NCBI GenBank assembly: GCA_017525915.1
Contig: JAFXSC010000019.1
Coordinates: 1-41,335 of the forward strand
Reading direction: 5' to 3'
Source of the DNA: Ruminococcus sp.
GTDB taxonomy: Bacteria; Bacillota; Clostridia; Oscillospirales; Ruminococcaceae
Length of the DNA: 41,335 bases
Of the stretch, positions 35,410 through 41,335 are shown in pieces. The position numbers and the translations under genes were made by a program. Below the pieces are notes generated by a model. That model saw only the letters and a list, made by a program, of their open reading frames with translations. It made no database searches and had not been told where the DNA came from. Positions within the stretch are counted from its first letter, which is position 1. Each line of letters starts with the position of its first letter.

Positions 35410-36384
35410 ATGGAGACTGTTCTGGTAACAGGTGGTTGTGGGCTTATCGGTCAGCATATATGCTCCGGACTTCTTAAAAAAGGTTATTCAGTTATTGCGG
35501 TCGATAAAGAACCCGGTATATATAATGAGGGGAAGCTGAATTATTCATTCATACAGGCTGCCCCGGACGACAAAAACGCTTATGCAGAGATTTTTGAAAA
35601 TAATAAGATAGATATGATGATACACGGCGCGTGTACGGTCGATAACGACTTCGGACCCATTGTCACTGACGCGGAGGTCAATGTCTCCAAGCGCTGTGAC
35701 AAGTTCATATACCGCTATGCTATGATGTGCGACAGCCTTAAAAAGTTCGTCCTCCTCAGCACAGACCAGGTGTATGAATTCCCTAAGACCCGTGAGCCTA
35801 TCCGTGAGGACGGCGAACTGAAGCCCCGTACAAACTACGCAGACCTCAAATTTGCTTCGGAAAAAGCACTCATCTCCGAGATGTCCCACCATAAGGACGA
35901 GGAGGGCGAGTACAGGGTAATGTGCTGCATTATCCGCTTCTCACCGGTCTATACCAAGACCTTCACCGAAAACCTCATCGCTAAGATAACAGACCCCAAG
36001 GACGGCGTGAAATTCGTCTCCGGCAAGGGACAGTACGGCTTCCAGCTCTGCTGCGTCCACAACCTCGTGGACTTTATCCTCTGCTTTGTCAAGAACGCTG
36101 ACAATATGACCTACGCAGGCGTATATAACGTGAGCGACAAGCTCCTCACTACCGCCGCGGATATCATTACCTTCATGCGCGAGAACTATACACTCGGCGC
36201 TGTTATCCAGCGTTCCCCCGGCGGCGCAATGTCTAAGCTCCGCGGCCTGTTCTCAAGCAATAAGGACGAGAGAACCAATTACCGCTTCCTTGATGTCACC
36301 AAGCTCGAGAATAATAACCTCCTTGATAATACCAAGGCTGCTAAACTCACCAACCCGCGCTGGGATATCCACAATACTAAATAA
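35410..36384 (+). CDS. NAD-dependent epimerase/dehydratase (extended SDR)
   Basis: 324 residues. N-terminal Rossmann motif TGGCGLIG (7-14), an acidic end of strand 2 (VDKE), LLSTDQVYEF carrying the catalytic Ser/Thr, and NYADLKFASEK with the YxxxK pair. This is the extended SDR family that modifies nucleotide sugars, but the substrate cannot be read from sequence. AAGGAGG is 9 bases before the ATG at 35410, so the 10-codon upstream extension is not used. TATAAT boxes at 35322 and 35333 suggest a promoter, but no good -35 is present. It is the last host-like gene before the AT-rich region. Confidence 0.82.
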   Translation: METVLVTGGCGLIGQHICSGLLKKGYSVIAVDKEPGIYNEGKLNYSFIQAAPDDKNAYAEIFENNKIDMMIHGACTVDNDFGPIVTDAEVNVSKRCDKFIYRYAMMCDSLKKFVLLSTDQVYEFPKTREPIREDGELKPRTNYADLKFASEKALISEMSHHKDEEGEYRVMCCIIRFSPVYTKTFTENLIAKITDPKDGVKFVSGKGQYGFQLCCVHNLVDFILCFVKNADNMTYAGVYNVSDKLLTTAADIITFMRENYTLGAVIQRSPGGAMSKLRGLFSSNKDERTNYRFLDVTKLENNNLLDNTKAAKLTNPRWDIHNTK

Positions 36385-36427
36385 TTACGGCACTCTGTAT
36401 GCCGCGTCAAGTTATAAGTAATACGTT

Positions 36428-36455
36428 AGCTATCGGGGGAAAACCTTTCTGATGT
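36428..36455. repeat. Fragment related to the 12102-12474 palindromic element
   Basis: TTAGCTATCGGGGGAAAACC, continuing CTTTCTGA, matches the minus strand of about 12409-12434 apart from small gaps. Only one half of the hairpin is present; the pairing partner has been lost. Confidence 0.5.
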
Positions 36456-36530: not shown

Positions 36531-36546
36531 TTTATTGTAATTTGAG

Positions 36547-36577
36547 ATCGCCCGTTCGAACCGGGTCACTAGCTCCA
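36547..36577 (+). other. tRNA 3'-end fragment, candidate attachment site
   Basis: GCCCG, the canonical T loop TTCGAAC, and CGGGT form a T arm (36550-36566), followed by a 7-base acceptor strand CACTAGC, discriminator T and CCA (36567-36577). No D arm, anticodon arm or matching 5' strand (expected GCTAGTG) lies upstream, so this is not a tRNA gene. Tyrosine integrases typically leave exactly such duplicated tRNA ends. The isotype is not certain; Thr or Gly would fit the discriminator. Confidence 0.75.
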
Positions 36578-36780: not shown

Positions 36781-39700
36781 ATGAATAAAGATTCAACATA
36801 TGTATTATTTCCAGGATTGGAAGAAAAAGAGAAATATTTGATAGATGTAATTAAAAACTATGATATTGACTCCATAATAAAGGCGGCTTTTACTATCAAT
36901 AGTTGGAGGAACAATAGAGGTGCTCAAGAAAGCTGTCTCTCTTTAAATGCAGCTATTCTTCACTGTGATGGTTATGGAAAAAAGAAGATTGATACACATT
37001 TAGATTTCGTAGCATTTTTCAACAAGATATATGAAGCGTTAAAAATAGAGTATTACGATGATCCGGTATTGAAGGATTTTGGTGAAATAAAGCTATTTTT
37101 TAATAATAAATTCTATCCTATTATTACAGGAACCGGTCATTCCTTTCCTGTTTTTTCGGCATTGCAATGCTTAGAGCCTGTCACAAGATTAAACAATACT
37201 TTTAAAGATACATTATCCGTTTTGTCATATGTTGAAAAAATGATAGATATGTTATTTAACAATAATGGAAGTACTAAGGATGCTGAAGATTTATCTCCTG
37301 TATTTGAATGTCCATCAGAAGATTATTATAAAGATGTATGTAATTTTATTGATAAAAAGTTCTTTTTATCACTGCCTAAAAGAATAATAACATTGTTTTC
37401 AAATGAAAATTCAATTGAAACTGCACATTTTTATAATTATAATAACACAATATTACCTTTATTTAATCCTTCAATCTTGATAGATTATTATACTGTAGAA
37501 ATAAAAAAGCTTTCGGCTGAAAATAAGGCTTCCATAGTTATAAATCAGTTTAAATCAAAAATCAAAAGATATCATCTTAACAAAGACATACCAAATTGTA
37601 TTTTGTTTGAGAATTTTAAGCTTGCTTTCGACAAAAAAGTTGTAAATACTGCTGAAGCTTGTACTTTGGTTTATTATGACAGAGATGATCTAATGCTCTT
37701 TATTGACGTATCTCAAATTGACAATAGTAAGTATGATCTAATTAATGATATTATGTCTGCACATAGTGAGAGTAAACTAAGTATCATCAATTTTGAAGAA
37801 ACGAGTGGCAATTATTGCAGAGCATATGGTTTTGATGCCTCTGTTAGATTAACTATTATTCCTTATTGCAATTATATTGGAGAAAAAGATAATTTCCCTG
37901 TATTACCTACTAATATTGATGCTAAAGTTATGGAACTTACATTTACGGCAATTGATTTGATTTTTGTATTGATGTTTTCCCCAAAAATTGAAGATATAGC
38001 CGATTATATTAGACTAAGAAATGATTACGAGCATAATATCATTTCTTTTGGTGGAAAATCAGATGATTATTCTATTTTTTTATCAACAGGAGATGTGTCA
38101 AAAGGTGCGATTGAATACTATAGTCTCGCCATTGAATGTGATTCCGCAGCACAATATATATATGAACAATATTTGGTTTATAGTGAATTCTTTCCGTTCA
38201 ATTATAGAAATGTATTTTTGGAACCAGAATGCTGGGCATTTGAGAAAGAAGAGGAAGCGGTAAGTTTTGCATCAAAAACAGATTTTTCTCATATGGGAAC
38301 ATTAATAAAAACAGGAAAAAATGTTTTGATTGTTAATCAGTATAATATGAAGAAAATAATGCTGGAAATGACTAACCAGCAATTTAAAATACAATTTGAT
38401 CTTTATCGTTCTATTGTTGAATACTATTTTATGGAATATAATTCATTGTTTAGCTCCACTGGTTTTATGAAAAATAAAATTCTGCTTTTAAACTGCTCGT
38501 CGTTAATTGACAAGGTAGAAAATAATAAATATATTAATATTATAGCATTTTACGAACAAAACGGAGTTTTTATAATGGATTATGACCTTAACTGTGCAAA
38601 ATTAATGATTGATCTTAAAAAATGTAAAGATAGGTCAATTGAGCACTCCATTATACTTGAATTACTGTTCCCATTAGCAGCATACTATCCAACGGAATAT
38701 AATCTTATTCAAAAGAAGATCGTTCAAGATAAGTCGAATAATAAAAACTTCAATGCTGATGCAGTGCAATTAAAGCATTACTATAATCCAAATAGTTTTG
38801 GTGTATCCTACTCAGCAAAATCTAATCAGGCAGTAAGAAAAGTAATCGCTAAGATATGTCATAAAGCCAGCATTGTTCCAGGTGAGTATCAGAACAAAGA
38901 AGCAACGTCTGTCATTAGATCGATTCAAAAGGAAATATTTGGCTACTTAGAGAAATTGCTTATTACGTATAACAAGCATAAGACACACATTATTCTATTA
39001 TCATTTTTGTCACATTCACAGTTTAGGCTTTACACAAATGACTATTGTTACCATTTGAATGATAACATAAATCAGGATGTCAAAGAAAAAAATCATAACA
39101 AAATACAGAAGGAGTACGAAAAAATAAGAGAAGAAATATATCATTTAAGGTATCTGATTGAAACTAATCTCAGCATTGAAAGCAGAACAGAAAATGTTAT
39201 TACAGATAGAGAGCTTTCAATGGCCTATTCGTTATCTGAGTGGTTAGTTGCATTTCAGAATAATTCTGACCTTTGTTTTCATACTGACTCGCAAGCTACA
39301 GTTACTGTTTTAGATGACTTCAGAATTGATGTACATCTGAGTGATCACTACCAAAATACATATAAAGATGTTAGAAAAAGATATATGGAGAATAGTGTTT
39401 TATCGTTCGGAGATGAAAATGATAACCGGTCTTATATGTCAGGAGTGATTTCTGGTTTCTATGATGATACAGGTGTCAAATTTGAAGTGCTTGAAGTTGT
39501 AATGCGTTATTTGTATGAAGCAGCTTTTCCAGAAGGCAACCAAAACTTTGAAGAGTTAAAAGCAAATGTTTTCTCAATTGAAAAATCAGAAGCTATACTT
39601 GATTGTAAAGATTATATCGTAGATAGCATTATGATTGAAGATATAAAAAAGGCATTTGATTTTTTAATACTTGATTGTAGCAAAATAAAAATGCTTAAAG

Positions 39701-40386
39701 GGAAAATTAATGATATACTTCCTATTTGGGACAGAGAAAATCGGGATAATCGTTTTGAAGTCAAGCCAATAATTCAATTAGAAAACAAGCTGATTTATTC
39801 GCCGATATGCATATATGAACTACATAGACGCTGGATAAGCGGCATTCACCAATTCTACATTCCATATGAATATGGGCTTACCAACACTTGTAAAGCTCTT
39901 GCAGAATGGAAGGGATATTATGAAAAAATTTTTTCTAATCAGATTAAAAACTATTTTATCGAAAAAAAATTTGATTTTGCAGATGCAGATATCGATATCA
40001 GAAGAAAAGATCGCAAAGGAAATCATCCTGAAATACATGAATTAGGTGATTATGACGTTATAGGCTTGGACTCGAAAAACAAAAGAATATTCATTATTGA
40101 ATGTAAATTTTTACAACCAGTAGGTTCAGTTTTTGAACATAGTAAAGAACAAGAACGTTTTTTCCAAAAAGAGAAATTTGATGAGAAGTTTCAAAAGCGA
40201 ATAGATTATTTATCGTCTGTTTACCGCTCGTTTTTCAACAATCTTGGCTACAGTATCAATGAAAACGATGAATATGATATTCTTTCATATATGGTAGTTA
40301 ATAAAGTATTTGCTTCATATTACAAAGAAATCAAATTTCCGATTATTACATTTGATGAATTAAAGAAAATCATTGAAGGAGATTAA
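36781..40386 (+). CDS. Large unknown protein with C-terminal PD-(D/E)XK nuclease signature
   Basis: 1201 residues of no family I recognise. The C-terminal 130 residues have GDYDVIGLDSKNKRIF followed by IIECKF: Asp1092, 15 residues, then Glu1107-x-Lys1109, with hydrophobic strands on both sides, the pattern of the PD-(D/E)XK nuclease core. The remaining 1050 residues are mixed alpha/beta, with a probable coiled coil at about 768-800 (KEKNHNKIQKEYEKIREEIY) and no visible Walker motif, helicase motif, signal peptide or clear membrane helix. AGGAGG lies 5 bases before the ATG. Strongly AT-rich, unlike the host genes. The second island gene begins 81 bp downstream from its own promoter. A cytoplasmic nuclease in a defence system is the likeliest role, but it is inference. 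Confidence 0.85.
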   Translation: MNKDSTYVLFPGLEEKEKYLIDVIKNYDIDSIIKAAFTINSWRNNRGAQESCLSLNAAILHCDGYGKKKIDTHLDFVAFFNKIYEALKIEYYDDPVLKDFGEIKLFFNNKFYPIITGTGHSFPVFSALQCLEPVTRLNNTFKDTLSVLSYVEKMIDMLFNNNGSTKDAEDLSPVFECPSEDYYKDVCNFIDKKFFLSLPKRIITLFSNENSIETAHFYNYNNTILPLFNPSILIDYYTVEIKKLSAENKASIVINQFKSKIKRYHLNKDIPNCILFENFKLAFDKKVVNTAEACTLVYYDRDDLMLFIDVSQIDNSKYDLINDIMSAHSESKLSIINFEETSGNYCRAYGFDASVRLTIIPYCNYIGEKDNFPVLPTNIDAKVMELTFTAIDLIFVLMFSPKIEDIADYIRLRNDYEHNIISFGGKSDDYSIFLSTGDVSKGAIEYYSLAIECDSAAQYIYEQYLVYSEFFPFNYRNVFLEPECWAFEKEEEAVSFASKTDFSHMGTLIKTGKNVLIVNQYNMKKIMLEMTNQQFKIQFDLYRSIVEYYFMEYNSLFSSTGFMKNKILLLNCSSLIDKVENNKYINIIAFYEQNGVFIMDYDLNCAKLMIDLKKCKDRSIEHSIILELLFPLAAYYPTEYNLIQKKIVQDKSNNKNFNADAVQLKHYYNPNSFGVSYSAKSNQAVRKVIAKICHKASIVPGEYQNKEATSVIRSIQKEIFGYLEKLLITYNKHKTHIILLSFLSHSQFRLYTNDYCYHLNDNINQDVKEKNHNKIQKEYEKIREEIYHLRYLIETNLSIESRTENVITDRELSMAYSLSEWLVAFQNNSDLCFHTDSQATVTVLDDFRIDVHLSDHYQNTYKDVRKRYMENSVLSFGDENDNRSYMSGVISGFYDDTGVKFEVLEVVMRYLYEAAFPEGNQNFEELKANVFSIEKSEAILDCKDYIVDSIMIEDIKKAFDFLILDCSKIKMLKGKINDILPIWDRENRDNRFEVKPIIQLENKLIYSPICIYELHRRWISGIHQFYIPYEYGLTNTCKALAEWKGYYEKIFSNQIKNYFIEKKFDFADADIDIRRKDRKGNHPEIHELGDYDVIGLDSKNKRIFIIECKFLQPVGSVFEHSKEQERFFQKEKFDEKFQKRIDYLSSVYRSFFNNLGYSINENDEYDILSYMVVNKVFASYYKEIKFPIITFDELKKIIEGD

Positions 40387-40410: not shown

Positions 40411-40439
40411 TTGAGAAATTGTAAGAAATATGCTACAAT
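40411..40439 (+). promoter_or_regulatory. Promoter of the zinc-ribbon island gene
   Basis: TTGAGA, 17 bp, TACAAT, in the 81-base gap, 28 bp before the ATG. Confidence 0.65.
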
Positions 40440-40467: not shown

Positions 40468-41335
40468 ATGTGTGCATTATATTTCTGTAAATGCGGCTCA
40501 CAACAGTTTGAACGTGCAGACGATAAAATTATATGCAGTAGGTGCAAAAATCCGGTTGATTCAAAAGGAACTACAGGATTCTTTGATCCATCAGATAGTA
40601 AGTCAAAGGAGTTCATTACCAAACTTGGCATTGATATTGGAACTGAGGCGGCAACTTTAGGGGCTGGTGCATTGATAGGAATTGCTATGCCATGGACGCT
40701 TCCTTTTACTTTTACTGCATTAGGAATTATTCTCAAAAATGGTGGAGAAACGTTATCTAGCAGAATATCTGAAAAATTCTTTAATAGCGATTCATATGGT
40801 AAACATATATCGGATATTTTTGAAAAAGAACTAAAAAAAATAATAAAAAAAGCCAAGAATCCTTCCTTTGGATATGAATCATTTTACAATTATCACTTAT
40901 ATTGTTCAAACCATTATTCTGAGGTTATCTCTTTTTTAATTGACAATAATTGCAATACTGATATCTTTTCAGAAGAAGCCATTAAAGCGATAGTATCAGA
41001 GAAATTTGGTTATCCAGGTCGTGAAGATAAGCATATCTTGGACAGTATTCTTTCAGCTACTAATGAACTTCGGCATAGTTTTGAAGAAAATGTAATTAAA
41101 GATAAAGATATTCGTTTAAGGTGGACCATCGAAAAGAATAAAGCTGAACAAGATAAAAACTTTTCAAGAATTATTGAACTACTAACATCAAGTCCCAAAG
41201 ACAGTTATGTTGATGATGATACCTATGAGTATATCAAAAATTATAATCGTCCCTTGTTTCTTGATAAAAATTCTAATATTACACTTGGAAATATGTATCT
41301 TGAACCTCAGGTCGAAAATATGAATATTTCTGCAA
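40468..41335 (+). CDS. Zinc-ribbon protein, 3' truncated by the window; possible STAND-type ATPase
   Basis: 289 residues are visible with no stop, so the gene continues beyond the window. The N-terminus is a zinc ribbon: CKC (Cys7, Cys9) and CSRC (Cys23, Cys26). Next is a Gly/Ala-rich hydrophobic segment (about 61-89, AATLGAGALIGIAMPWTLP) that could cross a membrane, then a charged helical part. The last residues read ITLGNMYLEPQVEN (271-284). In many NACHT/STAND proteins a similar phrase, a strand then aY(I/V)xP, comes just before the Walker A loop; that loop would lie beyond the window edge. GGAGG is 8 bases before the ATG. Same AT-rich composition as the nuclease-like gene. The ATPase idea is inference from one short segment. 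Confidence 0.8.
   Translation, partial: MCALYFCKCGSQQFERADDKIICSRCKNPVDSKGTTGFFDPSDSKSKEFITKLGIDIGTEAATLGAGALIGIAMPWTLPFTFTALGIILKNGGETLSSRISEKFFNSDSYGKHISDIFEKELKKIIKKAKNPSFGYESFYNYHLYCSNHYSEVISFLIDNNCNTDIFSEEAIKAIVSEKFGYPGREDKHILDSILSATNELRHSFEENVIKDKDIRLRWTIEKNKAEQDKNFSRIIELLTSSPKDSYVDDDTYEYIKNYNRPLFLDKNSNITLGNMYLEPQVENMNISA

Follow-up and report, generated by a model that had tools for sequence, protein, structure and literature searches.

A distant relative of the anti-phage protein Upx, with an apparent restriction-type nuclease domain, on an AT-rich stretch of a Ruminococcus contig

The locus and its features

At the end of the 41,335-nucleotide stretch of Ruminococcus sp. DNA that we analysed (contig JAFXSC010000019.1 of assembly GCA_017525915.1; below, the window), an open reading frame on the plus strand, 36781..40386, encodes a protein of 1201 amino acids, P0001. 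The window is one entire contig (G000:C36) of a 67-contig, 3.09-Mb assembly. The reading frame starts with ATG, has AGGAGG just 5' of it, and is followed after 81 bp by a second gene, which begins at 40468, exits the contig end and encodes the first part of a NACHT protein. A preliminary description made from the DNA letters had presented P0001 as an orphan with a PD-(D/E)XK core and as a possible undescribed defence protein. We found by profile comparison that its C-terminal half resembles that of the anti-phage protein Upx, and P0001 is probably a single-protein anti-phage effector on a branch that lies far from the Upx proteins described so far; we put the probability of this reading at about 0.72.

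Over the first 36 kb the GC content per kb is 44-59%; it falls to 40% at 36-37 kb and to 28-31% at 37-41 kb, and a 33-bp remnant of a tRNA-Thr gene lies at the start of the AT-rich part, so that the island beside a tRNA scar proposed in the preliminary description is indeed seen. The same two genes stand behind an intact tRNA-Thr gene in locus L002 (CAMKMD010000085.1, a metagenome-assembled genome of an uncultured Ruminococcus). The features of the region are as follows.

36545..36577, plus strand: 3' remnant of a tRNA-Thr gene, a putative attachment-site scar at the island start; 31 of 33 bases equal the intact tRNA-Thr of L002
36576..36613, plus strand: terminator-like hairpin of 17 pairs right behind the tRNA remnant, also in L002
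36683..36711, plus strand: promoter-like TTGAAA-17-TATAAT with extended -10 TG, 5' of the Upx-like gene; a consensus match alone
36781..40386, plus strand: Upx-like protein P0001, 1201 amino acids
36781..38586, plus strand: residues 1-602, the N-terminal half, a candidate sensing half; conserved in the clade of P0001, without detectable similarity to Upx or to known domains
38587..40377, plus strand: residues 603-1199, homologous by profile comparison to the C-terminal half of Upx (hhalign, 553 columns)
39751..40377, plus strand: residues 991-1199, the Mrr/NERD-like candidate nuclease domain, from conservation and profile matches
40054..40056, plus strand: codon of Asp1092 (GDYD motif), invariant in 13 of 13
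40099..40107, plus strand: codons of Glu1107-Cys-Lys1109 (ExK), with Glu and Lys invariant in 13 of 13
40198..40200, plus strand: codon of Arg1140, 3' of ExK, invariant in 13 of 13
40411..40439, plus strand: promoter-like TTGAGA-17-TACAAT with extended -10 TG, 5' of the second gene; a consensus match alone
40468..41335, plus strand: start of the NACHT/pentapeptide-repeat protein, 289 amino acids, cut by the contig end; its full 965-residue homologue is L002:8729-11626

The consensus scan that gave the two promoter-like sites returned 35 sites in the region against 31.5 expected.

Relationship to Upx and the nuclease signature

The relatives that we grouped with P0001 as the window clade come from six loci outside the window (L002, L005/L007, L004, L003/L009, L010/L014 and L020). 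The first gene of L002 encodes a protein of equal length, 87% identical to P0001 over all 1201 residues. The protein of L005/L007 (genome G511, same class), which has an N-terminal SEC-C motif, is 29% identical over residues 17-1200, and that of L004 (Lactococcus plasmid pFI430) 28% over 553 residues. The remaining three are pieces at contig edges: the last 138 residues in L003/L009 (G056), an N-terminal piece in L010/L014 (G816) and the first 501 residues in L020, on a viral contig, with 39% identity to the SEC-C-bearing protein P0002.

The profile of the window clade was aligned with a profile of Upx-like proteins using hhalign, and the two matched at 99.2% with an E-value of 5.6e-20 over 553 columns, covering residues 603-1199. 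The nuclease domains alone, with the two clades kept apart, gave E 1.7e-18, while as controls each whole-protein profile was compared with an unrelated alignment (E 0.7 and 0.38). In addition, a window profile that contained no Upx row (A2) reached a protein of genome G1052 (E 1.2e-10) and one of G935 (E 1.8e-4), and both of these match Upx, in PADLOC with E-values of 1.6e-47 and 7e-86 and in NCBIfam, under the name 'anti-phage protein Upx', with 197 and 314 bits. Upx is said to go back to Gao et al. 2020 (Science) and to feature in later surveys. Chain A of PDB entry 9wuf (1272 amino acids) matched the Upx-like profile over residues 55-1252 with E 8.2e-115, and the window-clade nuclease profile has the same chain as its top PDB match (E 0.009, across the motif region); the next PDB matches, Rab GTPases from E 0.033 up, were taken as noise. 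In a 12-row tree a long branch sets the four rows of the window clade apart (support 100/100, stem of 3 changes per site), the tree being unrooted and the program warning of long branches and uneven composition. On this evidence residues 603-1199, including the nuclease domain, share descent with the C-terminal half of Upx. The profile-profile match rejects the orphan status and the claim that the protein matches no family, and the label of an undescribed defence protein is not supported, because residues 603-1199 appear homologous to an anti-phage protein that has been described.

The nuclease had been proposed from the pattern D-x14-E-x-K, and Asp1092, Glu1107 and Lys1109 do lie at these positions in P0001. 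The exact pattern occurs twice in the protein (at 978 and 1092), and when P0001 was shuffled it appeared at least once in 395 of 1000 sequences, so that the bare pattern is at chance level and was rejected as evidence on its own. It is the conservation across homologues that makes the motif real: all 13 aligned sequences carry Gly1089, Asp1092, Glu1107, Lys1109 and Arg1140 unchanged, so that none lacks the D/E/K residues. The 13 comprise P0001, four further window-clade members (the L002 near-duplicate and the L003 fragment among them) and eight Upx-like relatives; L010 and L020 stand outside, since their sequences stop before the C-terminal end. Weak family matches among these 13 domains (E up to 1) were to Mrr_cat in four (best 3e-4), NERD in four (best 9e-4) and DUF234 in four (best 0.0023), all three being members of the PD-(D/E)XK clan. 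The C-terminal domain thus looks like a restriction-type, Mrr/NERD-like nuclease with a G-x-x-D...E-x-K...R signature. Pfam found no ATPase in P0001, in agreement with the preliminary description.

Several results weigh against a Upx-like effector with such a nuclease. P0001 did not match the Upx models of PADLOC (PDLC02221) and NCBIfam (NF042954) at E up to 1; neither did P0002 nor the L002 and L004 proteins match that of PADLOC, and the sole window-clade match to it was the L003 fragment (E 7e-4). The Upx-like relatives themselves fall far under the NF042954 equivalog cut-off of 1900 bits. P0001 alone does not find 9wuf (E 0.22, a chance match only), and the whole-protein window profile reaches it only at E 0.19. 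The profiles are small (Neff about 2), and with so few sequences in each the E-values are rough; the same holds for the comparison of the N-terminal halves of the window clade and Upx, which gave an hhalign E of 0.94. As for the domain, nine of the 13 members have no Mrr_cat match, and the only matches of the window member, to ASCH (0.023) and DUF234 (0.033), stay below the cut-off. The AlphaFold models were unusable, with a mean pLDDT of 32.5 for residues 590-1201 (four sequences) and 29.9 for the N-terminal half (three sequences), most likely because few homologues could be used, and we therefore infer the PD-(D/E)XK fold from sequence.

When the two parts of the protein were searched separately, the nuclease part led to Upx and 9wuf, and for residues 1-600 no match in Pfam, NCBIfam, PADLOC, PHROGs or PDB was significant. 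These residues are best read as a sensing half that has diverged from that of Upx or been replaced; a new sensor domain, as the preliminary description suggested, would fit the lack of matches and is a possibility. A decayed second nuclease domain in this half was considered but not supported, the N-terminal profiles giving E 0.36 and 0.11 against the nuclease profile. The SEC-C zinc motif was found at three of the five outside clade loci with an available N-terminus (L005, L020 and partly L010), and is absent from the window protein, L002 and L004.

Distribution, gene neighbourhoods and the island junction

The gene is rare. In the family, 2 of 297 genomes gave a match, and in the class 3 of 391, of which one was spurious; the profile search found 4 of 398 phylum genomes (two Upx-like) and 3 of 391 class genomes (one Upx-like, PADLOC 1.6e-21); all four counts include the genome of the window, the genome draws overlap, and the loose first-pass screen may miss divergent members. 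A match at L006 (G531) was a cysteine-rich protein with 69 residues matched and was dropped as spurious. Among the best 80 of 144 viral loci only L020 matches beyond residue 124 of P0002, the other 79 mostly within the SEC-C motif. The plasmid search returned 386 records; 19 of the 20 among the matches listed align only within residues 3-131, and pFI430 was taken. Pieces of a Sinorhizobium plasmid (L019) were excluded from the alignments because the gene looked fragmented. The viral contigs contained no relative of P0001, A2, P0002 without its SEC-C motif or the NACHT protein, and neither P0001 nor the G1052 protein matched any phage record. A housekeeping gene is rejected by the rarity in the family, and no housekeeping context was seen among the six loci. 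Members of the branch were found in the window genome and in an uncultured Ruminococcus, on a Lactococcus plasmid, on a viral contig, and in further genomes from the family, the class and the phylum of the window.

The neighbours at three window-clade loci were scanned with PADLOC and a defence match was found at all three: a type IIG-like protein at L002 (2.1e-13), PDC-S14 at L009 (9.2e-110), and TmtA (9.8e-102) and a TIR-like protein at L020. It must be said against this result that the scanned neighbours were chosen by eye, without a random-locus control. At L007 RepA_N and ParA adjoin (Pfam), and the plasmid stretch of L004 carries a RelE/ParE-type toxin gene. At the three of the eight Upx-like loci where the neighbours were tested, defence-type genes were likewise seen nearby, namely Avs2 (L016), McrBC (L101) and a caspase-helicase (L018). 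In L016 (564-8510, Deinococcus sp. QL22 plasmid) the Avs2-like gene lies immediately 5' of the Upx-like gene; in L018 (7613-10684, Bosea plasmid) two annotated genes separate the caspase-like and DEAD-box helicase protein from the upstream Upx-like gene. The preliminary description had suggested that P0001 could be an anti-phage effector on an island. The defence neighbours, together with an accessory distribution (2 of 297) and the position by a tRNA remnant, speak for that part of it.

We also noticed several peculiarities of single loci. In L004 (5583-6694) IS981 lies between a 218-residue N-terminal piece and the 892-residue rest, so that the Upx-like gene appears interrupted. In L014 (111-1487, G816) HsdM_N runs in frame into SEC-C and the window-clade N-terminal region at the contig edge, which would be a fusion, a deletion or an assembly join. 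The viral contig of L020 (3993-9506) has a tail tape-measure-like gene by reading, and in the same locus a single reading frame passes from a phage-tail-like start (again by reading) into a TmtA-like part and is followed by an AlbA-TIR protein and then by the window-clade SEC-C protein; it is possibly a defence cluster carried by a prophage. DNA-ligase-like and Ku-like genes lie near the Upx-like gene of G1052 (L013, 10219-11969), as judged by reading their translations only.

The second gene of L002 encodes 965 amino acids with NACHT and pentapeptide-repeat matches. It is 89% identical to the window copy, and by reading the two share a C-x-C...C-x-x-C zinc ribbon at their start. The NACHT protein was found in 4 of 245 class genomes, own included, the other three matches being weak; pentapeptide matches turned up in 149 plasmid records, and the other matches to it were weak. 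This neighbour may be a partner of the Upx-like protein.

Upstream of the island lies an epimerase gene. Of 60 genus genomes, that of the window among them, 57 have a close match to it (E <1e-100) and the remaining three weak matches only. The DNA similarity to the window ends at 36384-36386, just past the epimerase, in 10 of 11 relatives; in the other, L116, it ends at 36344, with a separate 21-base match at 36438. From these ends and the position of the tRNA remnant the junction should fall between about 36385 and 36545. As a test for the empty site, a tRNA was sought in the 2.5-4 kb examined and was found in none of the 11 relatives with a returned locus. The 25-base core of the remnant has no second copy in the assembly at up to one mismatch, and no integrase gene was noticed in the island part within the window. 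The AT-rich stretch is probably mobile, and the lone tRNA 3' fragment at the junction may reflect an assembly join.

Proposed function and comparison with known systems

What P0001 does in the cell can be weighed between several explanations. We tentatively consider that it could be a restriction enzyme proper, type IV-like, in which the N-terminal half would directly recognise modified or foreign DNA, instead of an abortive effector triggered by infection. Some members of the domain family look like Mrr_cat and NERD, 9wuf bears the name 'Restriction endonuclease', and a table in PMC10855318 places Upx under nucleic acid degradation; however, no known modified-base-binding domain was found in the N-terminal half, and the name of 9wuf is the depositor's label. 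Searches of the available literature for Upx and 9WUF listed no paper on this structure and no title on the mechanism or structure of Upx. It is rather unlikely that the two genes form one system in which the NACHT protein would be the NTP-dependent sensor and the Upx-like protein the nuclease effector. Both genes are rare. In the window as in L002 they stand in the same order and on the same strand with about 80 bp between them, and their products are 87% and 89% identical, but this linkage was seen only at these two closely related loci. Three other loci have a different downstream gene (RepA_N at L007, a 212-residue hypothetical protein at L004, a DUF4357 protein at L009), L020 and L010/L014 being uninformative because of contig ends. 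The second gene also has a promoter-like site of its own, the contig end truncates its window copy, and Upx is a single-gene system.

We regard as improbable a combined scheme in which the N-terminal ~600 residues would be a sensor unrelated to that of Upx, giving a modular family that swaps its sensing halves, and the nuclease would in addition be wired to the NACHT/pentapeptide neighbour in a two-gene, NTP-gated system. A role outside defence, as a nuclease for the maintenance of mobile elements or for plasmid competition, seems very unlikely. It would suit those homologues that lie on a plasmid or next to RepA_N/ParA genes, but Upx is described as anti-phage (by its NCBIfam name), and a listed defence gene adjoins at every one of the three loci scanned.

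As a single-protein anti-phage effector, P0001 might work in the following way. While the cell is at rest, the N-terminal and middle regions would keep the nuclease inactive or away from its substrate. During infection the N-terminal half would recognise a phage-derived cue, probably not the cue of Upx, since no similarity between this half and that of Upx could be detected. The C-terminal Mrr/NERD-like domain would then cut DNA, with Asp1092, Glu1107 and Lys1109 binding metal and activating water, and the outcome would be restriction if the target is invading phage DNA, or abortive infection if it is all DNA. The island would spread through integration beside tRNA-Thr.

Passages of PMC12629846 place Upx in island hotspots of Pseudomonas; the UpxY/UpxZ named in a passage of PMC12118408 are unrelated to it. 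Current Upx models miss the branch described here, which suggests that defence surveys based on them under-count. A common nuclease half joined to undetectably different N-terminal halves also offers a direct way to locate the part of Upx that senses infection.

The D...E-x-K arrangement of the window-clade/Upx-like domain is the one found in the Mrr_cat (PF04471) and NERD (PF08378) families, although the surrounding architecture is different, the window member has no match to them, and the bit scores, where shown, are below the curated cut-offs. Chain 9wuf_A, which belongs to the Upx family by sequence, has the same GDiD...viEcK motif in its C-terminal region, and the window clade alone reaches it weakly, through the nuclease domain. 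Compared with Upx itself, the window clade lies on a separate branch and its N-terminal half is not detectably related, whereas both appear to be single proteins of about 1200 residues with homologous last ~600 residues and the same invariant C-terminal signature.

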